From Chthonomonadaceae bacterium (lineage in GTDB: Bacteria; Armatimonadota; Fimbriimonadia; Fimbriimonadales; Fimbriimonadaceae), in the NCBI GenBank assembly GCA_016788345.1, contig JAEURO010000003.1:1-38447 (forward strand): DNA of 38,447 nucleotides. The letters run 5' to 3'. Both the position numbers and the translations under genes were made by a program. Below are positions 3,262-35,176 of this stretch, piece by piece (position 1 is the stretch's first letter; the number at the start of each line of letters is the position of its first letter). The notes under the pieces are model-generated. The model was given only the letters and a program-made list of their open reading frames with translations, ran no database searches and was not told the DNA's origin.

Positions 3262-3888
3262 ATGACAACGAGCCTTTTCGCCCTCTTTGCCGTCTCGTTC
3301 CTACCTGCCCTTGGCGACGAGCAGCTTAGCGAGTCGATCGCCGACCTTCTCCACAGGGCCGACGTTCAAGGGGAAGTCAACCTGACCCGTTCACAATTGG
3401 ACAAGTGGCTCAAATTGGATCCACCTCCTAAAGCCAAGGTGCACAGTTCATTTGCACCAGACTCTCTTGAGTTGGCCGACCCAGACGTCCAAGCCAAGAG
3501 AGAACAGGAGAGAGAAAAACGGGTGTGGTCGCTCCTCAGTCCGTCCCAAGTTTCACGACTCATGGAACTCTATATTCAGCGGTCAGGGCCGGCATGCCTT
3601 GCCCGTAATGACGTGCAGGCCGTTCTTGAATTCTCGGCACCGCAATGTGACGAAGTCCGCAGAGCTACGTCCGAGTATCGTTTTCTGGTCAATAGCATCA
3701 TCAAACTGCAAACAGAGAAGCGTTCCGAATTTGACCGGCCCGACCCCAAAAAACTCAACGACCGACTGAAGCTGGCCAAGTCAAAACTACGAGAATCCCT
3801 GGATAGAGCCATGAATCCTGACCAGCGCGACAAGCTCAAGCAGCTTGGCGGTAAGGAGTTCTCGTTCGCGACCTGGCCCGGTAAATAG
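3262..3888 (+). CDS. Exported LTxxQ-like helical protein
   Basis: A protein of 208 residues with a clear signal peptide (MTTSLFALFAVSFLPALG, cleavage likely before DEQ). The mature part is largely helical and charged. It has two repeats of the kind LSPSQ...ME/L (about 95-105) and FSAPQCDEVR (about 125-135), then MNPDQRDKLKQLGG near the end. Such LTxxQ-type periplasmic helical proteins occur in CpxP/Spy-like and planctomycete families. Here the role could be stress sensing or chaperoning, but this is not established. ATG 3262 follows the mirrored promoter element at very short distance and has no Shine-Dalgarno sequence. Confidence 0.7.
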   Translation: MTTSLFALFAVSFLPALGDEQLSESIADLLHRADVQGEVNLTRSQLDKWLKLDPPPKAKVHSSFAPDSLELADPDVQAKREQEREKRVWSLLSPSQVSRLMELYIQRSGPACLARNDVQAVLEFSAPQCDEVRRATSEYRFLVNSIIKLQTEKRSEFDRPDPKKLNDRLKLAKSKLRESLDRAMNPDQRDKLKQLGGKEFSFATWPGK

Positions 3889-3993
3889 ACTAGGCTTAGG
3901 GCCATGCCGCACTGTTAGAGTTTGCCCTCAAAGTGAGGTTTCGCCTGGTCGTCATGGTGCTCAAAGACCTGAGGGTCAGCACCTGACCAATCG

Positions 3994-4992
3994 TCAAACG
4001 TGCTGTCTACGCCACAGGACAAACAAGAGCAGCGGGGCACCGAGAGCGGCCGTTATGGCGCCAAGTGGCAATTCCGTCCCTGGCTTTAGACTCTGTGCCA
4101 AGACGTCGGCGACAAGCAACAAGACTGTCCCATAAGCCACTGACATCGGCAAGGAGAACCTTAAGTCCGGGCCCACGCTGCGCCTGGCCAAATGTGGTGC
4201 GACTAGGCCGACAAACCCAATCATTCCGACACACCCCACGACCACCCCCACGATGACCGTGGTCAAAGTAAGGACCACCCACTTCGTCCGGTTCACGTCG
4301 ATCCCTTGGGTGCCAGCCATCGTTTCGCTCACGGACACTGCGGTGAGTTTGCGAGACTGCATATAGAGAAGGACAAAGATAGGCGCGCCTACAACGGCCA
4401 ACGTGGCGACCCGGTCCCAATACATCGGAGTCGTGCTGCCCAGCAGCCACCACAGGACTCGATTTGTGTCTTGCCCTGCAAACCATAGGTTCAGCGTTGT
4501 CCAGCCCGCGAGTAATGAACTTGTCACGACACCTCCAAGTAGCAAGGTCTCCATGTTGATCGCGCCTTGCCTCCTGGCTAAAGCTACGACAAACATCAAG
4601 CTCAAACATCCTCCTAGGCACGCCGCTATAATCCTGACCAAACCAATGTCCAGCCCAACTAGAATGGCGATTGTGCCACCTACCGCTGCCCCGCTGGAGA
4701 CCCCCAAAACGTAGGGCTCGGCAAGAGGGTTGCGCAAGAGCGCTTGATAGACACACCCGACACAGCCGAGCACCCCACCGGACAGGGCGCATGCGAGGGC
4801 ACGTGGCAGACGGACTTGCCACAAAATGAGGTGGGAGGTAGATCCTGTCTGTCCAGGGCCCAGCATGAGGTCTCGTGCGATCTCGGACAAGGGAATGCCC
4901 ACTGAGCCGACACTGATGTACACAAGTACAGCGGCCAAAACCGCCAAAAAGCCGATGGCGATTGTACGCCACGGCCTTTTCAGACGATCCAT
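3994..4992 (-). CDS. FecCD/BtuC-type ABC transporter permease
   Basis: A protein of 332 residues with about nine or ten transmembrane helices. It carries the family signature GVLGCVGCVYQALLRNPLAE (near 75-95) followed by PYVLGVSSGAAVGG, and the C-terminal GFVGLVAPHLARR loop that contacts the ATPase. Relatives move ferric siderophores, haem or cobalamin through the inner membrane as dimers with an ATPase and a binding protein. No partner gene is present in this window: upstream is the divergent uracil-DNA glycosylase, and downstream is a convergent unrelated gene. A CATAAT sequence lies 5 nt before its ATG. The substrate cannot be told from the sequence. Confidence 0.9.
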   Translation of the reverse strand: MDRLKRPWRTIAIGFLAVLAAVLVYISVGSVGIPLSEIARDLMLGPGQTGSTSHLILWQVRLPRALACALSGGVLGCVGCVYQALLRNPLAEPYVLGVSSGAAVGGTIAILVGLDIGLVRIIAACLGGCLSLMFVVALARRQGAINMETLLLGGVVTSSLLAGWTTLNLWFAGQDTNRVLWWLLGSTTPMYWDRVATLAVVGAPIFVLLYMQSRKLTAVSVSETMAGTQGIDVNRTKWVVLTLTTVIVGVVVGCVGMIGFVGLVAPHLARRSVGPDLRFSLPMSVAYGTVLLLVADVLAQSLKPGTELPLGAITAALGAPLLLFVLWRRQHV

Positions 4993-24703: not shown

Positions 24704-27700
24704 TTACTTTTTGACCCGCGGGAACTCGGGATACTTCCGAGACTTGGATCCTTTCTTGAGCTCTCCATTGAGATATTCGATCCCTCGATCCAAGACGGGA
24801 TCCTTGCCTTGTGCGATCAAGTCTGGCCGTGCATCGACTGTAATGTCCGGGTCGACGCCCTTGTTCTCAGCGATCCACTCACCCTTGTCTCGATCGTAGA
24901 TTCCGAACGCCGGGGCGGTCACGCCACCTGCATCGACGGCATCATGGAACCCATTGATTCCGACGAGGCCACCCCATGTCCGTGTGCCAATGAGCGGGCC
25001 AAGGCCGTTGCGCTTAAACAGCCACGGGAACATGTCACCGCCTGAGCCAGCAAACTCGTTGATGAGCATGCACTTTGGACCATTGAGGGTTTGGTTCGTC
25101 AGATCCTGATCCATGCCGTACCTTGGCTTGAACACCGTTTGTGGAGTCCGCATCAGGTACTCGATAAAGAACGTCGGAATCCATCCGCCACCGTTATATC
25201 GTTCATCAATGATAAATGCTTCGGCGTCAGAGTTCGAATAGTAGCCCTTAATGAACTCAATTATGCCTTGGACGTTAGTGTTGGGGACGTGCATATAGCC
25301 AATCTTTCCGCCGCTCATTTTTTTGACATAAGACCGGTTCGTTTCGACCCATTCGATGTAGCGGAGGTTTTGTTCATTCGCGATTGGGCGGACGACCACC
25401 TTCCTCGTGCTTGTAGGTGACTGACCGACAGTCAAGGTCACGGACTTGTCCACCTTGTCGACCAAGAGTGAACTTACGCTTGTCTGGTCGGTCACAGGTG
25501 TACCGTTGATCGCGATCAAGTAGTCGCCGTCTTCGACGTTGACCCCGGGTGCACCAAGCGGGCCCGACCTTTCAGCTTCGAAGTTGAGTCCTTTGTAGAC
25601 TTTCTTGAACCGGACTTTTCCGCCAACGGTCTCGTAGTCGGCACCCAACATTCCCACGGGGACGTTTGGAGCTGAATAGCCCGTCTCGCCCGGTTGTGTG
25701 TATGCGTGGCCGGTCCCCAGCTCGCCAATCATGAGGCCGATGAGGTACGTCAGGTCGGCTCGGTTGGAGCAATAGGGCAATAGTGCCGCATACTTGTTAC
25801 CGATGGCTTTCCAGTCGAGCCCCAGCATCTTGGGGTCATAGTAATTGTCCCTTTCGTGCCGCCAAGCTTCCCAGAAGATCTGGTTCCATTCGTCGGTCGG
25901 GTTCCACATTGTGGCGACATCGGTGAGCGTCACTTTGCCTTCGCCTGGCTCGATGCCCGGATGGATGTCTGTGATTCCCACGACTCCGCCTGCAGCATAA
26001 GCCAGCTTCGTCCGCTTTTGGTTGAACGCCAAGTTGGATGGCCCAGCCAAGATCGACTGCGATTTTTTCGAGTCAAAGTCGAACTTGACCAAGCTGCCGT
26101 TCGAAACAGTCATGACGCCGTTTGTCGTCCCCACCAAGAAGCCGTAGTTTCCAGGTCCCCATGGAAGGGCGATCATTCGACGGTCCAAGCCGTCAAAGTC
26201 GATTTTTACGTCCGTGCCCTCGGCTGGCTTGGCGTCCTCTTTCTTGTCTCCAGTGACCGGCTCCTCGTCCGCAGGTGGGAGTAGTGGGTTGGTTTGATCC
26301 TTGCTGAGGACTATCGCATAGACTCGTTGGATCGAGGATTGATAGAGCCCTATTTCGAGCGGGCCAGGATTGGCCGCATATGTCCTACCTGAAACGACAT
26401 AAAGGTACTTCCCATTGAGATCGAACGAAACGGCAGTGTCAGCATAATATCCTTCCGTGATTTTCCGATCGGTTTTTGCCTTGACGTCATAGATGTTGAT
26501 CGCAGTGAACATGTTCTTCTGCGTCATGCTGTGGGCGATCCAGTTACTGTCTGGCGACCAATCAAACGCGGTTCCCTGGGCCGGGTCTGTATAGACCTTG
26601 TCTGTCGCACCCGAAGCGATGTCATGGACATAGAGTGAATTGTCAACAGTCCAGAAGCTGATTTTCTTTCCGTCTGGCGAGAAGCTGAATCCTTGGATGA
26701 TCACACCTGTTGGCGTGTTCAGTTCTTTGGCCACGCCGCCCATCTGCGGCATTTGGTAGATCCGTTTTTCACCGGACTTGTCGCTGATGAAGAAAATGGA
26801 TTGTCCGTCATATGACCATTGTGGGTTCGTTTCGCGCGATTTTGGACTGGCAGTCAAGTTCCGCGTCTCACCATTTTTGGCTGGGACACTGTACAGGTCT
26901 CCTCTAGCCTCGACGACCAAGCGCTTTCCACTAGGTGAAAGGTCGAAGCCGGCGACCGCATCGCCAAATCTTCTAAACCGGGGACGGGCCATGACCATGT
27001 CGCTGGCGACCCGGATTTTGAGATCGACCGACTGCATTGTCGCCAAGTCGAGAGCCCCGAGTTGGCCGTTCCTCTCGAAAACAAGTGTCTTACCGTCTGT
27101 GCTCGGGTTCTTCATGTCCCCGTCCTCATAGTTCGTCACCTGCTTTGAGGAGCGGTTGCCCGTGTCGTAACTCCACAAATTGATGTTTTCGCTCGACTTG
27201 TCTGACAGGTAGTAGACCTTGTCGCCGACCCACATCGGCCAATAGTTTTGTTCTCGTCCAGTGGGAAGTTCCCAATACTTCTTTTGCGCAAAGTCGTAGA
27301 AACAGACGCGGCCCTGCGTTCCGCCACGGTACCTGCGCCAGTTGTAGCCATAGCTATTGTTGCGGTTGTAAGCCATAGTCGTACCGTCAGGCGAAAATGT
27401 ACCGTTCGAATACTCGGCCAAGTCAGTTCTTTCAGGCATACCCGCATTGAGCCCGACTTTCCACAAACGGCCGGTAAAGGCCGAACCAAGCGACGATGAG
27501 TAAGTGACCTTGCCGTCCGGTGACCAGCCCGTCACGTTACATGGTGCGGGGTCAAACGTCAGTCTCTGCGGTGACCCACCCTCTGATGGAATGACATAAA
27601 CGCTCGGTACGGCTGAATCGTACTGGCCACTAAAGGCGATCCACTTTCCGTCTGGGGAGAACCTCGGCCAGGTCTCGGAGCCTGCGCTTGTGGTCAGTCT

Positions 27701-27853
27701 TCTGGCCAGACCCCCTTTGAGGTCTGCAGTCCAGATGTCGCCCCCGTAGACAAATGCGATAGAGTCGCCATGGACTGTCGGGTACCGAAGGAGCTTGATC
27801 TCAGTACCGTTCGATTGAGCCAGGGCGACAGCAAGAATTGATGTCGCAAACAT
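24704..27853 (-). CDS. Tricorn-like S41 serine protease with propeller and PDZ domains
   Basis: A protein of 1049 residues with a signal peptide (MFATSILAVALAQ). Repeats of the type FSPDGK, WSPDGK and YDGQSIFF over about 30-560 form WD40/TolB-like propeller blades as in tricorn protease. After about 650 comes the S41 core: a GTGHAYTQPGE histidine region, a PDZ segment (GVNVEDGDYLIAINGTPV, near 785) and the nucleophile in FAGSGGDMF (Ser937) with GTRTWGG after it. Tricorn-like enzymes degrade peptides, here probably in the periplasm. It is divergent from a second S41 gene of similar design. GAGGTAAGAAT precedes the start. Confidence 0.93.
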   Translation of the reverse strand: MFATSILAVALAQSNGTEIKLLRYPTVHGDSIAFVYGGDIWTADLKGGLARRLTTSAGSETWPRFSPDGKWIAFSGQYDSAVPSVYVIPSEGGSPQRLTFDPAPCNVTGWSPDGKVTYSSSLGSAFTGRLWKVGLNAGMPERTDLAEYSNGTFSPDGTTMAYNRNNSYGYNWRRYRGGTQGRVCFYDFAQKKYWELPTGREQNYWPMWVGDKVYYLSDKSSENINLWSYDTGNRSSKQVTNYEDGDMKNPSTDGKTLVFERNGQLGALDLATMQSVDLKIRVASDMVMARPRFRRFGDAVAGFDLSPSGKRLVVEARGDLYSVPAKNGETRNLTASPKSRETNPQWSYDGQSIFFISDKSGEKRIYQMPQMGGVAKELNTPTGVIIQGFSFSPDGKKISFWTVDNSLYVHDIASGATDKVYTDPAQGTAFDWSPDSNWIAHSMTQKNMFTAINIYDVKAKTDRKITEGYYADTAVSFDLNGKYLYVVSGRTYAANPGPLEIGLYQSSIQRVYAIVLSKDQTNPLLPPADEEPVTGDKKEDAKPAEGTDVKIDFDGLDRRMIALPWGPGNYGFLVGTTNGVMTVSNGSLVKFDFDSKKSQSILAGPSNLAFNQKRTKLAYAAGGVVGITDIHPGIEPGEGKVTLTDVATMWNPTDEWNQIFWEAWRHERDNYYDPKMLGLDWKAIGNKYAALLPYCSNRADLTYLIGLMIGELGTGHAYTQPGETGYSAPNVPVGMLGADYETVGGKVRFKKVYKGLNFEAERSGPLGAPGVNVEDGDYLIAINGTPVTDQTSVSSLLVDKVDKSVTLTVGQSPTSTRKVVVRPIANEQNLRYIEWVETNRSYVKKMSGGKIGYMHVPNTNVQGIIEFIKGYYSNSDAEAFIIDERYNGGGWIPTFFIEYLMRTPQTVFKPRYGMDQDLTNQTLNGPKCMLINEFAGSGGDMFPWLFKRNGLGPLIGTRTWGGLVGINGFHDAVDAGGVTAPAFGIYDRDKGEWIAENKGVDPDITVDARPDLIAQGKDPVLDRGIEYLNGELKKGSKSRKYPEFPRVKK

Positions 27854-27861
27854 ACGCGTTG

Positions 27862-27870
27862 ATTCTTACC
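27862..27870 (-). promoter_or_regulatory. -10-like GGTAAGAAT of the minus-strand protease gene
   Basis: GGTAAGAAT on the minus strand ends 8 nt before ATG 27853. It fits the local motif only with a one-base shift. GAGG at its 5' edge could instead be a distant ribosome-binding site. Confidence 0.3.
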
Positions 27871-27923
27871 TCGCACAGGTGGCCAACGTTCCGTTGCCTC
27901 AGGACATTGGGTCTTTTAAGGGA

Positions 27924-27931
27924 GGTATCTT
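27924..27931 (+). promoter_or_regulatory. -10-like box GGTATCTT of the plus-strand protease gene
   Basis: GGTATCTT ends 8 nt before ATG 27940. The GGGAGG just before it would be too far (14 nt) for efficient ribosome binding at this ATG, so it favours reading the sequence as a promoter element. Confidence 0.4.
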
Positions 27932-27939
27932 GTCGGATC

Positions 27940-30900
27940 ATGGCCGCTCGAGCTCTACTTTGCGGAATTGCTCTATTAGCTTGTATGGCGTCTCACGCCA
28001 ACACGATTGTCAGAACATCCGATCCCTGCCTCTCCCCCGACGGAAAGTCACTTGCGTTCGCGTGGCAGGGGGACATATGGACAGTTCCCAGTACGGGTGG
28101 GACAGCCACTAGATTGACCGTCCATCCGGCTGAAGAGAGCCTTCCCAAGTGGTCCCCAGACGGCAAGAAGATTTACTTTGCCAGTTCTCGCTTCGGTTCA
28201 CTCGACGTGTTTTGTACGGGCGCCGACGGATCGGGCCTCAAGCGACTGACCTTTGAAAGCAGTAGCGAATACCCCTCTTCGGTGTCTCCTGACGGGCAAT
28301 ATGTCTATGGGTACACGAACAATTTTGGTCGCCTCGACGTGTTCCGAGTGCGGTCGACCGGCGGCGAGGTCGTTCGATTGACCGCTGGCGTGATGGAGTA
28401 CGAGTACTACCCCACATTGTCGCCGGACGGTCAGTGGATGGCTTACAACTCAGGCGGCGGGCCGGGAAACTGGCGAAAGCCTGGACACAGCGGCGCAAAT
28501 ACAGCCCGCATTTGGATCACCCAGGCAACTGCGCCAGTCAGACAGAGCCGCTTGGTCATTCCTGGGGACCGGAACGACCTTTTCCCGGTGTTTCTGGACA
28601 ACGACACGTTGGCGTTTGTCTCGAACCGCGGGACTGCCCCCAACGTATGGACCGGCAACACTCAAGGTGGGGGGCTCAAACAACTGACCCAATTCACCTC
28701 GGGTACGGTGCGAGTCCTTAGTGCCAGCAAAGATGGCAAACTCCTGAGCTTTCAAAAAGATTCCAGGATATGGACGCTTGATCGGACCACAGGCTCTGCG
28801 CATCCACTCGAAATTTTGGCTCCTGCAGACGCGCCCAGAGACCCTGTGCAAGAATTGAGCCTCAGCACAGGCGCTTCTGACTTTTCCGTGTCTCCAAACG
28901 GTAAGAGGGCTGTGATCCAGCTTCGCGGCGACCTCTTCCTTATTCCAGAAAAAGGCGGTACGACACGTAGGCTGACGACTTCGCCCCGGCTAGATTCAAG
29001 CCCAGTTTGGTTGGATGACACAAAGATCTTGTACGTTGCGAGTGGTGCCAAGGGCCTCCGTTCACTGAAGACAGTCACCATCGAAGGCAAGATCGTCGAC
29101 TACCAAAATGACGTGAAGGATCTCAACAGCCCTATGCCGTCGCCCGACCACAAGTGGGTCGCCTTCCATCGCGGTGACCGCGAAATCCTGGTCTGTGCGG
29201 CTTCTGGTGGCGAAGCCAAGGTGGTCGCAAAAGGTGACTTTGGCGACGCAGTCTCCGGGGGCCGTACCTACAATTGGTCCCCGGACAGCCAGTGGATCGC
29301 TTACCGTGCCACAAGCCAGCGGGGAGTCAGGATCCAAGTGGCAAAGGTGGATGGCACCGGCGTTATCGAAGTCACAAGGGTCGGCAAATCTAGCTCGACG
29401 CCAGTGTTCAGCGCCGACGGCAAATCTTTGGTGTTTGCCGGAAACGAAGGAGTGAATTACTCCGAAACCCGAGACTCGAGGACGCCAATGTTTGTGATCG
29501 ACCTTGTGCCCCAACCTCTCACCTGGTCCGAAGACGACCTGGACAAGATCGACGCAGCTAAAGAAGAGCCAAGCAAAGATACGTCCGTAAAAATTGTTAT
29601 CAAGGGCATAGAGGGACGGCGCAGGGTCCTTGACACAGGCGACGCCGGGGGGATCTGGCCTGGCGCGGACGGAAAGTCCATGTACGCCAATATCGAGGGC
29701 CAACTGTCCACGGTCGACTTGAAATCTGGGTCAGTCAAGCCCGTCGCTACCGTCACCGGCCCGGTCAATGGGATCGAGTGGGCTGCGAACAAGCAGAAAC
29801 TCTATTTCCTTCAGGCCGGAAAGGTTAATGCCATGTCCGTTGCCGGAGGGGCGGTGTCACCGGTTGGATTTAATGCACAGTTCAGTGTCAACTTAGCCGA
29901 TGAAGAGCTCTGCCTCTTTGACGAGGTCTGGTGGGCAATGAGCAGGATGTACTACAACCCAGCCATGAACAATAAAGATTGGGCGGCCATCCACGACAAG
30001 TTCGCCGAAATTGTCCCTGGAGTCCAGAGTCGTGACGACTTCTACGCGCTGATGGGCGAAATGCTCGAACTCCTGGACAGTAGCCACTTGGGTGCGAACG
30101 GCCCCGGAGGGTATCGGGCCCCCGTCCCTGACGAGACTGGATGGCTCGGCGTCGATTGGGACATGGACGCGCTCGATGCCCGTGGAAGTTTCGTAGTGAG
30201 CAAGGTCTACGACAATTCTCCCGCTGCGCACCCAGACTCTCAACTCAGCGAGGGGGACAGGGTGACAAAAGTCGATGGTGTCGATTTAGGCAAGGGGACG
30301 ACCATGGCTGAGGCGCTCAACCGAAAGGCTGGCAAGCGGGTCAGGTTGACCCTCATCCGACGTGAAAAAACAGTCGAGGTCGCCATTCAACCAGTTAGGC
30401 CATCGACAAAGACTTCCGCATGGTACGATGCTTGGGTTCGGTCGAACAAAGACATCGTGGACAAGCTAAGCGGTGGAAAGCTCGGATACATCCACATACA
30501 AAGCATGGATGTTCCCAGCCTCGACACATTCTTACGAGAAATCTACACCGATCTCGATGGGAAAGACGGTGTTTTGCTAGACGTCCGCTACAATGGTGGC
30601 GGATTCACAAGCCACATCATCCTTAACACGATGCTTAAGAGGCCTTGGCTCATCCGGACCAATCGCGACGACCCTGATCATCGGTTCAGCGAAAACAGCT
30701 ACCGGGGCAACGCGCTCGAAATGCCTGCAGCATGCCTGACGAACCAATACTCGTTCAGTAATGCAGAAATTTTTTCCGAAGGATTTCGGTTCCTCAAGCT
30801 GGGGCCAGTCATCGGCGAGCGGACTGCAGGAGGCGTCATTGGCACTGGCGCATACAGCCTATGGGACGGTGGCTCCATCCGGATGCCAGGTAGCGGCGCC

Positions 30901-31044
30901 TACGCCATGAATGGCGAGAACCTCGAGCAAAATGGGCGCAAGCCAGACGTTGAGGTGCGCTGGACACCGAACGATTCTGTCGACGGTAGGGACCGTCAGC
31001 TTGAAGCTGCTGTCAAAGAACTCATGAAGCATGTCAAAAAGTGA
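27940..31044 (+). CDS. Tricorn-like S41 serine protease, second copy
   Basis: A protein of about 1034 residues. MAARALLCGIALLACMASHA is a signal peptide. Propeller repeats (LSPDGKSLAFAWQGDIW, WSPDGKKIYFAS, VSPDGQYVYG) fill about 30-600; a PDZ-like segment (LSEGDRVTKVDGVDLG, near 770) and the S41 core follow. The core has SHLGANGPGG (histidine), LLDVRYNGGGFTSH, and the nucleophile in SFSNAEIF (Ser940), then IGERTAGG. In the first copy the nucleophile context is GSGGD; here it is FSNAE, so the two are diverged paralogues, perhaps with different substrates. The start is set by the signal peptide and the -10-like box; the frame itself extends to 27838. Confidence 0.93.
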   Translation: MAARALLCGIALLACMASHANTIVRTSDPCLSPDGKSLAFAWQGDIWTVPSTGGTATRLTVHPAEESLPKWSPDGKKIYFASSRFGSLDVFCTGADGSGLKRLTFESSSEYPSSVSPDGQYVYGYTNNFGRLDVFRVRSTGGEVVRLTAGVMEYEYYPTLSPDGQWMAYNSGGGPGNWRKPGHSGANTARIWITQATAPVRQSRLVIPGDRNDLFPVFLDNDTLAFVSNRGTAPNVWTGNTQGGGLKQLTQFTSGTVRVLSASKDGKLLSFQKDSRIWTLDRTTGSAHPLEILAPADAPRDPVQELSLSTGASDFSVSPNGKRAVIQLRGDLFLIPEKGGTTRRLTTSPRLDSSPVWLDDTKILYVASGAKGLRSLKTVTIEGKIVDYQNDVKDLNSPMPSPDHKWVAFHRGDREILVCAASGGEAKVVAKGDFGDAVSGGRTYNWSPDSQWIAYRATSQRGVRIQVAKVDGTGVIEVTRVGKSSSTPVFSADGKSLVFAGNEGVNYSETRDSRTPMFVIDLVPQPLTWSEDDLDKIDAAKEEPSKDTSVKIVIKGIEGRRRVLDTGDAGGIWPGADGKSMYANIEGQLSTVDLKSGSVKPVATVTGPVNGIEWAANKQKLYFLQAGKVNAMSVAGGAVSPVGFNAQFSVNLADEELCLFDEVWWAMSRMYYNPAMNNKDWAAIHDKFAEIVPGVQSRDDFYALMGEMLELLDSSHLGANGPGGYRAPVPDETGWLGVDWDMDALDARGSFVVSKVYDNSPAAHPDSQLSEGDRVTKVDGVDLGKGTTMAEALNRKAGKRVRLTLIRREKTVEVAIQPVRPSTKTSAWYDAWVRSNKDIVDKLSGGKLGYIHIQSMDVPSLDTFLREIYTDLDGKDGVLLDVRYNGGGFTSHIILNTMLKRPWLIRTNRDDPDHRFSENSYRGNALEMPAACLTNQYSFSNAEIFSEGFRFLKLGPVIGERTAGGVIGTGAYSLWDGGSIRMPGSGAYAMNGENLEQNGRKPDVEVRWTPNDSVDGRDRQLEAAVKELMKHVKK

Positions 31045-31180: not shown

Positions 31181-33571
31181 ATGAAAACTCGATTTGCAAT
31201 TACGCTGTCGGCCTTCTGGTGTCTTACTGGATCCGCAACAGCACAAACGCTTTTCTATAACATTGGAAATCTGGGACAGGGGGTCGGCTCTGACGCCCTT
31301 GGCTTGAGCAGGGATGGAGGCACAGTAGTTGGGATGTCGTCGTTTGGCGCCTTTGGCCGCGCTATCAAATGGACTGTGTCTGGTGGGATGACCAACCTTG
31401 GCGTCCTTTCTCTTGGATTCTCGTCGACTGCGTATGGGGCCAGTTCAAATGGAGCCGTCATTGCCGGGTTTGGCGACCCGCACGCCTTTCGATGGACGCA
31501 GGGCACGGGAATGACGACCCTTGGAAGCCTGGATGGCGGCGCAAATTCCGTGGCACGAGCCATCAGCAGCGATGGAAACGTGATTGTAGGCCAGTCCAGC
31601 ACTCAATCCGGCCCAGTTGCCGCTTTTCGTTGGACACAAGGAACTGGGATGGTCAACCTCGGCTATCTCCCAAATGGATCGGCGGTCGCCAGCGCCGGAG
31701 GGGTCAACCAAGATGGGAGCGTTGTCGTCGGCTACAGCTTAAAGGACGACGGCCAGCATGCCTTTCGATGGACTCAAGCGGGAGGCATGGCCGACCTCGG
31801 TGTTGGTTATGCCAACGCCGTAAGCGACAACGGATCAGTGGTTGTTGGCGGAGCCGGCAACGGCAACGCTTTCAGGTGGACGCAAGCCACGGGCATGCAG
31901 AACATCGGCGGCAACTTGGCCCGTGCGGTCAGCTCGGATGGTTCAATTGTTGGAGGCTCAGCGAACAACCGGGCGTTCCTCTGGAGTTCGGCTACCGGAT
32001 TGGTCGACTTAAACGAGTTCTTGCCCACTCAGGGTGTCGATCTGACCGGCTGGGTCCTGACAAGCACGTCCGGAATTAGCAGCAATGGCCAAAGTGTCTG
32101 CGGTCAAGGCACCTTCAACGGTTCGCCTCGTGGCTGGTACGTCTCTGGCCTCAAGCTATCGACAAGCGACTGGGTGCAGTGGGGCGGGAACGGACACTGG
32201 TACCGGGCGATTTACATACCGGCTGGTTGCAGTTGGGTCGAGGCCGACATCATCGCTCGCCAACAGGGCGGGCACTTGGCCACCATGACGACTGCCGCAG
32301 AAAACGATTTTGTTTTTTCGCTCGCCGATGACCCCCGGTACTTCGTGACCGACCCGAACAATGGCAACATCTACGGCCCGTGGATCGGGCTCGTCCAAGC
32401 TGCCAATGGCCAAGAACCTGGCGGCGGATGGGGCTGGGTGACAGGAGAAGCCTTTAGCTATACGCGATGGTTCCCCGGAGAACCGAACAACACTGCTGGA
32501 CAAGAAGACTGGGGCTGCTTCCTGCAGAAAAGCGGAAACTTGGGGCCCTTCTGGAACGACTTGTTCGACGGGTCTCGGCCAAGAAACAACCCACAACTGA
32601 CGAGCCTCATTGTTGAATCGCCATATCCGCCATCGGAATGGACCCAATGGGGTGGCAACGGACACTGGTACAAGGCCGTATCGTGCCCGGCAGGCATACG
32701 ATGGACGGACGCCCAGGCGCAAGCGACAATGGAGGGCGGCTACCTTGCCACAACAACGACGACCGCTGAAAACTCGTTTGTCTATAACCTGCTTTTCAGT
32801 GACCGCTTTCGGATTCCGGACTCGACAAACCAAACCTATATCAGTGGATGGCTGGGCTTGTTCCAACCAGATGGCGCACCCGAACCTAGCGGCGGTTGGC
32901 TCTGGTCGAGCCTAGAACAGGACACGTTTAGAAACTGGGCTAGTGGCGAACCCAACAACTTCCTCGACATAGAGGATTTCGCGAACTATCGTTATCCGAT
33001 TGGATCGTCCAACTCAGGCTGGAACGACTTTCCAAACTCCGGTTACCCAGGCGAGTTCGTGCCTAGCTTTGTCATTGAGCGGGACACTGCGCCACTGACC
33101 GGAAACCCAGCAGTGACCGCGTTACCTTCTACAGTGACGCTCACTCGCGGAAACATTGCGAGCGGTTTGCTGCCAGACCTGTTCGAAATCGACACAGACT
33201 TGCTCCAATTCAAGAAAGGTATAGTCATCAACCAGTCGGAGGCGCCGATCAACTTCACAGTCGGCACCACCTCTCCTTGGAACTCCGCCCGGGCCATGAC
33301 ACTCAACATGAGCCTCCGGGCCAATAGCACTTCCGTTCAAATGACGACCGAAGCCCTCGACTGGGTGTCTCAGAGCTATGTGGTCATTGACCAACGGCTA
33401 ACACCGACGGCAGAGACTCTGGTGGCCGTGAACTTGACTTTCCCAGAGCGATTCATCAAGTTCGAAACTCGAGAAATCCGGACACGGGTCAGCTTCAAGC
33501 CCATTGGCCCTGTCAGTCAGCAAGATTGGCGGGTTTTCATCAATTGGTTCAAGCATGACGTCACCCCGTGA
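31181..33571 (+). CDS. Secreted HAF-repeat and double C-type-lectin-like protein
   Basis: A protein of 796 residues with a signal peptide (cleavage near AQT, 22). Residues about 25-325 hold six or more HAF-type repeats, each with the core A-F-R-W-T-Q-x-x-G-M-x-x-L-G and an AVSSDGSVVVG-like strand. Two tandem C-type-lectin-like domains follow (331-478 and 487-633), each opening with TQWGGNGHWY-like residues and holding EPNN and WND, the calcium/sugar-binding style. The C-terminal domain (about 650-796) is strand-rich, begins LTRGNIASGLLPDLFEID and has no name known to me. CTLD1 keeps Cys350 and Cys446, CTLD2 only Cys502. It may bind surface or environmental glycans. It is a single gene with its own terminator. 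Confidence 0.85.
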   Translation: MKTRFAITLSAFWCLTGSATAQTLFYNIGNLGQGVGSDALGLSRDGGTVVGMSSFGAFGRAIKWTVSGGMTNLGVLSLGFSSTAYGASSNGAVIAGFGDPHAFRWTQGTGMTTLGSLDGGANSVARAISSDGNVIVGQSSTQSGPVAAFRWTQGTGMVNLGYLPNGSAVASAGGVNQDGSVVVGYSLKDDGQHAFRWTQAGGMADLGVGYANAVSDNGSVVVGGAGNGNAFRWTQATGMQNIGGNLARAVSSDGSIVGGSANNRAFLWSSATGLVDLNEFLPTQGVDLTGWVLTSTSGISSNGQSVCGQGTFNGSPRGWYVSGLKLSTSDWVQWGGNGHWYRAIYIPAGCSWVEADIIARQQGGHLATMTTAAENDFVFSLADDPRYFVTDPNNGNIYGPWIGLVQAANGQEPGGGWGWVTGEAFSYTRWFPGEPNNTAGQEDWGCFLQKSGNLGPFWNDLFDGSRPRNNPQLTSLIVESPYPPSEWTQWGGNGHWYKAVSCPAGIRWTDAQAQATMEGGYLATTTTTAENSFVYNLLFSDRFRIPDSTNQTYISGWLGLFQPDGAPEPSGGWLWSSLEQDTFRNWASGEPNNFLDIEDFANYRYPIGSSNSGWNDFPNSGYPGEFVPSFVIERDTAPLTGNPAVTALPSTVTLTRGNIASGLLPDLFEIDTDLLQFKKGIVINQSEAPINFTVGTTSPWNSARAMTLNMSLRANSTSVQMTTEALDWVSQSYVVIDQRLTPTAETLVAVNLTFPERFIKFETREIRTRVSFKPIGPVSQQDWRVFINWFKHDVTP

Positions 33572-33586
33572 TCTCAACTGACACCC

Positions 33587-33617
33587 CTCCCCCAGTGCAG
33601 ACACTGGGGGAGTTTTT
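33587..33617 (+). terminator. Intrinsic terminator after the HAF/lectin gene
   Basis: CTCCCCCAGTG (33587-33597) pairs perfectly with CACTGGGGGAG (33602-33612) around a 4-base loop, followed by TTTTT. It lies 15 bases after the stop codon and separates this gene from glnA. Confidence 0.93.
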
Positions 33618-33632
33618 GTTATTTCTTCAAGA

Positions 33633-33666
33633 TTTACCATTAATTTTGAAAAATTAATGGTAAAAT
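33633..33666 (+). promoter_or_regulatory. glnA promoter overlapped by a perfect 15-bp inverted repeat
   Basis: TTTACCATTAATTTT (33633-33647) and AAAATTAATGGTAAA (33650-33664) are exact inverted copies separated by GA. The right arm runs into GGTAAAAT (33659-33666), a -10-like box ending 10 nt before ATG 33677; the -35 position falls in the left arm. A bound dimer would cover the whole promoter, so repression is the likely mode. The sequence does not fit the NtcA (GTA-N8-TAC) or GlnR/TnrA patterns. No Shine-Dalgarno sequence lies before the ATG. Confidence 0.7.
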
Positions 33667-33676
33667 ACAACATGTT

Positions 33677-35176
33677 ATGATTTCAGATCCAATACGAAGT
33701 GCAATTGAGTCCATATCAACGGCCGACGGGCCTTACAAACCCACAAAGCCTCTCCGGAACTTCCTGGAAATTCCCTATGACGAGTTGGAGGAGCTCAATC
33801 TCGCAGCCAAGACACGGCAGTTGGAGCGGACTCCAGACAAGGATTTGCAGAAGCACTACCTCAAGTACTTAGAGTCGACCAAAGAGATCAAGGCCGTCAC
33901 CGTCTGTTTCACCGACATTGAGGGAAGGTTCCACACCCTCGACTATGACAAGAAATTCCTCCTCAAGAGTCACGACAACCTGACCTTCGACGGTTCCTCA
34001 ATCCGCGGATTCTCGGTTGTCAACGAGTCGGATTTGCGACTCGGAATTGACTGGGGCTCATTCCGGTGGCTGCCGAGTGATATTTTTGGGCCAGGAAAAG
34101 TAATAGTATTTGGCCTGATCTTAGACAAAGACGGCACTCCCTACGCAAGCGACATGCGTGGCAGGCTCAAGATTCTGAGCGACGAGCTGGCCAAAAAAAA
34201 GATGACCGCCAACATCGCGGTAGAGTGCGAGGGCTTTCTGTTCGCAGGTCTCAATGCCGAACAGGAGTACAACAGCCGCGACGGTTTCGTACCTGTTCAT
34301 AGTGGAGGCTACTTTAACAGTCTGCCGAACGATCCGCTCAAGCTTTTCATTGACAGGCTCGCAGAGTGTCAGCGTGCGCTCGGATTCGAAAACGAGAAGG
34401 ACCATCCCGAAGTCGCTCCCTCGCAGTTTGAGCTCAACTACTCGTATACAGAAGCATTGCTCGCCGCAGACCAGTTGCAGCTTTACAAGCTGACAGCCCG
34501 GCAGGTCGCCGCAAACATGGGCTGCACGGCAAGTTTCTTGCCCAAGCCAATCGCAGGTATCAACGGCAGCGGCATGCACACGAACATGTCGATTTCCAAG
34601 GAAGGCAAGAACTTGATGTATGACGCAAAGGGCGAAGACAAACTGTCTTCTTTTGGATGGGAATTCATAGACCGATTGCTCAACAGTGCAAATGAAATCT
34701 GCCTGGTTTTGAATCCGTCTGTAAACGCATACCGACGGCTTGATCCGCACTTCGAGGCACCAAACCAGATCAAGTCGTCTGCAGTCGACAGGACATCAAT
34801 GGTCAGAATTCCGCTGGGCAACGACAAGTCTGCACGCATCGAAGTTCGCACGGTCGCACCCGATGCCAACCCTTACATGGCGTTCTACGTGCTCATCAAG
34901 ACTGGACTGGAGGGGCCAATGACCGAGAAGATCTCCTCAGAAGAGCGGCGGACGCGGACGCGCTATCTTCCTGGGAGCATTTACGATGCTGTGAGGCATA
35001 TGAAAGGGTCATCAATGATGGGTTCGCTCCTGGGAGAAGACGTCAAGGACAAGTTCATCGAGCGCAAAGAGGCTGTCGCAGAGCGCTCACCAAAGGAGCT
35101 GGGATCCCTGATCAAAACCACCGAGATCCTCTTTCACCATGAGGTCACCAACCAGTACCTCTGGTCGAGGTTTTGA
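33677..35176 (+). CDS. glnA: Glutamine synthetase, type I-like
   Basis: A protein of 499 residues that would form glutamine from glutamate, ammonia and ATP. The N-terminal beta-grasp domain includes DGSSIRGF (near 105). The catalytic domain shows EVAPSQFELNY (metal and glutamate ligands, near 250), NGSGMHTNMS (near 295, with the ATP/glutamate histidine), NPSVNAYRRLDPHFEAPNQI (near 350) and IPLGNDKSARIEVRT. The region where E. coli carries its adenylylated tyrosine (NLYDLPPEE) reads PGSIYDAVRHMK, so that control is doubtful. An N-terminal extension of about 65 residues before the usual beta-grasp start is also present. It is the only gene between two terminator hairpins. Confidence 0.92.
   Translation: MISDPIRSAIESISTADGPYKPTKPLRNFLEIPYDELEELNLAAKTRQLERTPDKDLQKHYLKYLESTKEIKAVTVCFTDIEGRFHTLDYDKKFLLKSHDNLTFDGSSIRGFSVVNESDLRLGIDWGSFRWLPSDIFGPGKVIVFGLILDKDGTPYASDMRGRLKILSDELAKKKMTANIAVECEGFLFAGLNAEQEYNSRDGFVPVHSGGYFNSLPNDPLKLFIDRLAECQRALGFENEKDHPEVAPSQFELNYSYTEALLAADQLQLYKLTARQVAANMGCTASFLPKPIAGINGSGMHTNMSISKEGKNLMYDAKGEDKLSSFGWEFIDRLLNSANEICLVLNPSVNAYRRLDPHFEAPNQIKSSAVDRTSMVRIPLGNDKSARIEVRTVAPDANPYMAFYVLIKTGLEGPMTEKISSEERRTRTRYLPGSIYDAVRHMKGSSMMGSLLGEDVKDKFIERKEAVAERSPKELGSLIKTTEILFHHEVTNQYLWSRF

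Follow-up and report, generated by a model that had tools for sequence, protein, structure and literature searches.

The control of glutamine synthetase (GS) by nitrogen is known in detail in few phyla. To our knowledge, no nitrogen regulator has been described for the Armatimonadota, the Sericytochromatia and most of the Bdellovibrionota. Among the closest described systems, GlnR, a MerR family protein of Firmicutes, represses glnA together with feedback-inhibited GS (PMC9249791), the NtrC regulon encompasses glnA, amtB and glnBK (PMC5343134), and, in Sulfolobus, the glutamine-responsive Sa-Lrp binds the control regions of glnA (PMC3584215). In the window (the whole 38,447-bp stretch of DNA analyzed here), a GS gene is preceded by a perfect inverted repeat, the conspicuous core of a series of three probable protein-binding boxes that ends on the glnA promoter. 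The window is part of a metagenome-assembled genome that, to judge from its relatives, belongs to the Fimbriimonadaceae (Armatimonadota).

Like the operators of GlnR and TnrA, this site is an inverted repeat at the glnA promoter, but the consensus, the arrangement and the spacing of the half-sites (7 and 14 bp here) differ, and the array advances in 21-bp steps; furthermore, glnR belongs to the glnA operon, whereas no regulator gene adjoins glnA here. The core targets, glnA and amtB, are shared with the NtrC regulon, although consensus sites for NtrC and sigma-54 are absent and a search of the window genome for PII genes was negative. Lrp/AsnC sites, such as those of Sa-Lrp at Sulfolobus glnA and gltB, offer a parallel in the tandem sites on one face of the DNA and in the regulation of nitrogen genes by an amino-acid-sensing protein (PMC3584215), but the Lrp/AsnC gene is unlinked and missing from some array-bearing genomes, and the site sequence is different. 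The LysR-type nitrogen regulators, such as NAC, come to mind because of a LysR gene with boxes at its start codon in an acidobacterial genome (G061), but a LysR of this kind was not found in Fimbriimonadaceae.

The view of the first-pass annotation that the repeat fits no known nitrogen-regulator site held up when consensus patterns for GlnR/TnrA, NtcA, NtrC, sigma-54, NrpR, the ARG-box, FadR-type sites and actinobacterial GlnR were scanned on the repeat region, none of them matching (the GlnR pattern was taken from PMC9249791). The GlnR/TnrA pattern TGTNA-N7-TNACA is not present in the repeat, the nearest instance (1 mismatch in 8 positions) being located where the upstream gene ends (33567). 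The best matches to the NtcA pattern GTA-N8-TAC, the NtrC enhancer TGCACY-N5-GGTGCA and the sigma-54 promoter TGGCACG-N4-TTGCW had 2 mismatches in 6 positions, 4 in 12 and 5 in 12, respectively.

The inverted repeat and the three-box array

The features of the glnA upstream region are as follows (those without a strand are not strand-specific).

33587..33612, plus strand: intrinsic terminator of the upstream gene (31181-33571)
33613..33663: putative operator array of three boxes with a period of 21 bp, TTAnnnTWA-N12-TWAnnnTWA-N12-TWAnnnTAA, with one mismatch over the 18 positions
33613..33621: box 1, TTTTTGTTA, the weakest, overlapping the terminator T-tract of the preceding gene
33633..33664: inverted repeat, 32 bp, boxes 2 and 3 in perfect dyad symmetry
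33634..33642: box 2, TTACCATTA
33655..33663: box 3, TAATGGTAA, promoter-proximal, its final TAA being the start of the -10-like hexamer
33661..33666, plus strand: presumed -10 element TAAAAT, 10 nt before the glnA ATG, overlapped by the right arm of the repeat
33677..35176, plus strand: glnA, encoding a GS of 499 aa from a family with an N-terminal extension; three congeneric species share this start

The repeat, originally placed at 33633-33666, has indeed two arms that are complementary at 15 of 15 positions, TTTACCATTAATTTT (33633-33647) and AAAATTAATGGTAAA (33650-33664), around the 2-nt centre GA, but it ends at 33664. The resulting 32-mer has the layout TTTA-N3-TTAA-N10-TTAA-N3-TAAA and, as noted previously, is far more AT-rich than its surroundings (16% G+C vs 55% for the window). 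It is the sole perfect inverted repeat with arms of at least 12 and a spacer of at most 12 in the window; when the surrounding 100 bp of intergenic DNA was shuffled 3000 times with dinucleotides preserved, an arm of at least 15 never occurred and one of at least 11 occurred twice. The 317 contigs (2.56 Mb) of the host genome contain no further copies at up to 3 mismatches, and a single arm recurs only at 2 mismatches. The half-site search proposed in the first pass did not yield a second strong site in this genome, which suggests that glnA may be the sole strong target in the host species.

The boxes of the window array are TTTA-N3-TAAA-like and spaced 21 bp centre to centre. This array is the top match of the host genome to the three-box pattern, the next best one within the glnA locus having 6 mismatches. 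At 33587-33621, the lectin-domain gene upstream ends in a terminator whose T-tract (33613-33617) also contributes to box 1, so that terminator and putative operator are fused.

The repeat had been described as covering both the -35 and the -10 of glnA. Its right arm does overlap the -10-like TAAAAT, but no -35 was found, nor was any sigma-70-type -35/-10 pair upstream of the window glnA. Similar hexamers (TAATAT, TATCAT, TAAGAT, TAAAAT) are located 9-10 nt before the ATG in seven relatives, and, across the window and these seven Fimbriimonadales, the hexamer is TANNAT, with the first half provided by the TAA of the last box (TAT in L004). The hexamer was seen at this distance upstream of GS at L002-L005, L008, L010, L053 and L054. 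This position suggests a nearly leaderless or leaderless glnA mRNA, with the box lying on the -10, in Fimbriimonadales; from the predicted transcription start position, we infer a glnA leader of ~2-5 nt or none. Outside this order, the array is usually found 50-130 bp before the start codon. In one genome (G078), it is ~230 bp upstream of the glnA ATG.

The glutamine synthetase and nitrogen genes of the host

The suggestion that the adenylylation-site region of the enzyme is altered is borne out: this GS lacks the adenylylated-tyrosine loop of the enterobacterial GS, the loop aligned to that segment being EKISSEERRTRTRYLPGS, and the NLYDLPPE-type motif of GSI-beta is absent. The match of the protein to TIGR00653 is under the cut-off of that model, and the PDB entries most similar to it are shorter GS, of about 446-467 residues. 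Neither P-II (PF00543) nor amtB (PF00909) was found in the window genome, which is 89% complete, and, among 10 Fimbriimonadaceae genomes with the window-type GS, P-II is present in 2 and amtB in 3. Given the lack of the adenylylation loop, the short-type PDB matches and the failure to find PII and amtB, transcriptional control may be the main control of this enzyme, in line with the first-pass proposal.

The glnA neighbours in the window are ORFs for a lectin-domain protein and a DUF3592 protein, and no conserved neighbour gene of glnA was found in ~80 loci, so that no gene beside glnA qualifies as the regulator. Farther upstream, there are two divergent genes for tricorn-like S41 peptidases (24704-27853, minus strand, and 27838-31044, plus strand; PD40, Tricorn_C1, PDZ and Peptidase_S41 domains), the longest ORFs of which overlap by 16 bp at the 5' ends.

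Conservation of the array upstream of orthologous glnA genes

We analyzed the upstream DNA of 83 non-redundant orthologues of the window GS. Motif learning on these sequences, seeded with the window site, produced TTTAnnnTAAAt-N8-aTTTAnnnTAAA. With a plain 16-position score and dinucleotide shuffles, 31 of the 83 upstream regions reached a shuffle p<=0.02, where ~2 were expected, a count that is partly circular because the score was drawn up after a dozen of the sequences had been viewed. The box definitions, likewise, were taken partly from sequences that were later scored with them; the spacing, three-box and later tests are less circular than the 16-position count. Distances between single boxes peak at 21 bp (37 occurrences vs 2.7 expected, z 15.9), 42 bp (15 vs 1.8) and 63 bp (8 vs 1.2). 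The three-box pattern was found within 220 bp of glnA with 0-3 mismatches in 18 positions at 33 loci; away from glnA, these loci usually match it with 5-9 mismatches at best.

The boxes and their spacing are retained, and the intervening letters are not, in orthologues from Armatimonadota, Sericytochromatia, Bdellovibrionota, Myxococcota and some Acidobacteriota. The comparison of orthologous upstream regions, suggested in the first pass as a check on the repeat, does not bear out the refuting outcome named there (no conservation before orthologous glnA genes). It recovers an array across several phyla, but not the 15-bp palindrome as the conserved unit: what is kept is tandem TTA-N3-TWA boxes in 21-bp steps, and palindromy at the N positions is near chance in the relatives. 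Judging from these relatives, the perfect palindrome of the window is a locally sharpened version of a pattern that is conserved at the level of DNA. By eye, two other Fimbriimonadaceae (L006, with TGGAGCCTTAATCTTGCGAGATTAAGGCTCCA, and L007) have dyads that occupy the same frame and are perfect or nearly so, although the letters are partly changed, and a third (L004) has three boxes with the symmetry centred on the middle one.

On the GS tree, the distribution of the array is strongly clustered (14 changes vs a shuffled mean of 26.1, with 0 of 500 shuffles as low), with several losses or gains. Roughly one half of the GS family members sampled, most of them from outside Fimbriimonadales, do not have it, and two Fimbriimonadaceae members (L006 and L011) failed the array test. 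Among canonical-type GS genes from genomes of the same family and order that lack the window GS family, the array was absent in all 20 sampled. In a delta-proteobacterial genome (L047, 2750-2960), repeated GACGTC/ACGTCGAC-like units are located between the array and glnA.

Genome-wide specificity and target genes

In 21 genomes, the three-box pattern with at most one mismatch occurs at 14 places, of which 12 are glnA, one is a porin gene and one (G080:C400) is unexplained; low-mismatch arrays thus mark glnA in 12 genomes. At two mismatches, a reversed-pattern control gave an approximately equal count in AT-rich genomes, so that only the low-mismatch ranks are informative, and, because chance arrays are numerous in the AT-rich Sericytochromatia genomes, extra matches there were excluded from the regulon. 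A 30-bp version of the pattern, which is a rough control only, gave 3 matches in 10 genomes, none at glnA.

Apart from glnA, two or three boxes stand upstream of amtB in three genomes, which represent two lineages (G021, L147; G074, L169; G078, L238), and the array or its two-box form precedes a porin gene (PF07642, BBP2) of G074 and its counterpart in G021. The amtB and porin arrays are weaker than those of glnA, and no boxes were found at amtB of G001 and G013. The presence of the same row before a GS gene in unrelated phyla and before amtB in three genomes points to a nitrogen-control circuit, and this predicted, array-defined regulon is well supported.

In the acidobacterial genome G061 (L174), a LysR-type gene (3358-4242, plus strand) has a site of two to three boxes (3328-3359) that reaches its start codon, and the 21-bp register is kept at a 73% identical relative in G062 (L180). 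This LysR-type gene is more likely a target in that clade, its product being possibly a NAC-like secondary regulator, than the general regulator, given that the Fimbriimonadaceae have no such LysR; a single-sequence LysR query had no match in 12 Fimbriimonadales genomes. No autoregulated transcription factor emerged among the listed 3-mismatch matches of G021, G000 (the window genome), G003 and G010, most of which are intragenic or upstream of unrelated genes; a match in G010 that precedes a MerR-type gene by ~180 bp was judged to be due to chance. The long array at L235, 2897-2989 (G080:C220:12396-12488), with five boxes in 21-bp steps, comes from a Sericytochromatia genome, where it occupies an extended intergenic region with no recognised nitrogen gene adjoining.

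Proposed mechanism and alternative explanations

As read from the DNA, the array, its spacing and conservation, its register with the -10-like hexamer in Fimbriimonadales and its target genes make it fairly likely that the three boxes are the operator of a putative dimeric regulator and that glnA is repressed in nitrogen sufficiency. We infer protein binding, cooperativity, repression and a nitrogen signal as follows. A dimeric DNA-binding protein would occupy each TTTA-N3-TAAA-like box; with boxes 21 bp, that is, two helical turns, apart, the dimers would lie on one face of the DNA and bind jointly; the protein bound at the last box, over the -10, would deny RNA polymerase access; and glnA, joined in other genomes by amtB and the BBP2 porin gene, would remain repressed until nitrogen is short.

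We hold with moderate confidence that the regulator acts as a repressor. NtcA, NtrC and actinobacterial GlnR are activators under nitrogen shortage elsewhere, and the boxes might similarly be bound by an activator that recruits polymerase to a -10-like hexamer without a good -35 partner. Such an arrangement would account for the failure to find a -35 hexamer and for the boxes 50-130 bp before the start codon in other phyla, where an activator could sit, but it is unlikely because, in eight Fimbriimonadales species, the last box overlaps the -10 itself, a position that is typical of repressors. Short palindromes two turns apart, like the boxes, suit oligomers of the Lrp/AsnC type. An octamer of this family sensing an amino acid such as glutamine could be the bound protein, all the more as the window genome encodes one such protein and Sa-Lrp provides a precedent at Sulfolobus glnA (PMC3584215). 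The distribution of the gene, however, does not match that of the array, making this identity improbable: there is no PF01037 match in G061, G065 and G067 (possibly incomplete genomes), whose GS genes bear the motif, whereas Fimbriimonadaceae carry the gene irrespective of the GS type; lrp genes have no boxes; the box centre is not AT-rich; and the TGAAAWWWTTTCA consensus is absent.

With 16% G+C in a window of 55%, the repeat could be no more than an AT-rich, curved promoter stretch, an UP-element or a site for a nucleoid protein, that serves no specific regulator. This explanation is improbable because the distances between boxes, counted from 12 bp upward, have their maxima at 21, 42 and 63 bp and show no phase of 10-11 bp, the rough 30-bp control missed glnA, and low-mismatch arrays mark this gene in 12 genomes. 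The repeat might also work at the level of the transcript, by forming a hairpin in the 5' leader of the glnA mRNA or an attenuator, and its predicted single-strand fold is a 14-bp stem of -12.7 kcal/mol (z -3.4). This explanation is very improbable: with the -10-like hexamer at its 3' end, the repeat would be mostly untranscribed, no T-run follows the stem, and no Rfam family reaches the threshold. Furthermore, in 27 relatives with strong sites, the facing N3 positions pair 8, 11 and 7 times vs 7.1, 6.6 and 7.4 expected; the letters between the boxes being neither kept nor pairing, the conserved entity is not an RNA hairpin.

Returning to repression by a box-binding dimer, a broader proposition, which we advance tentatively, with the odds close to even, is an undescribed nitrogen-control system in at least 5 phyla, whose regulator, from a protein family with no established link to nitrogen, binds 21-bp-stepped TTA-N3-TWA arrays and controls one GS family together with amtB, in many cases where no PII gene was found.

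Concluding remarks

Operator arrays and nitrogen regulons are of known kinds; no description of the present sequence, its 21-bp stepping, its host range and the missing regulator was found in the openly accessible literature searched. A common, easily recognised operator provides a direct handle, through DNA-affinity capture, on the putative regulator, and the regulon becomes predictable from sequence.
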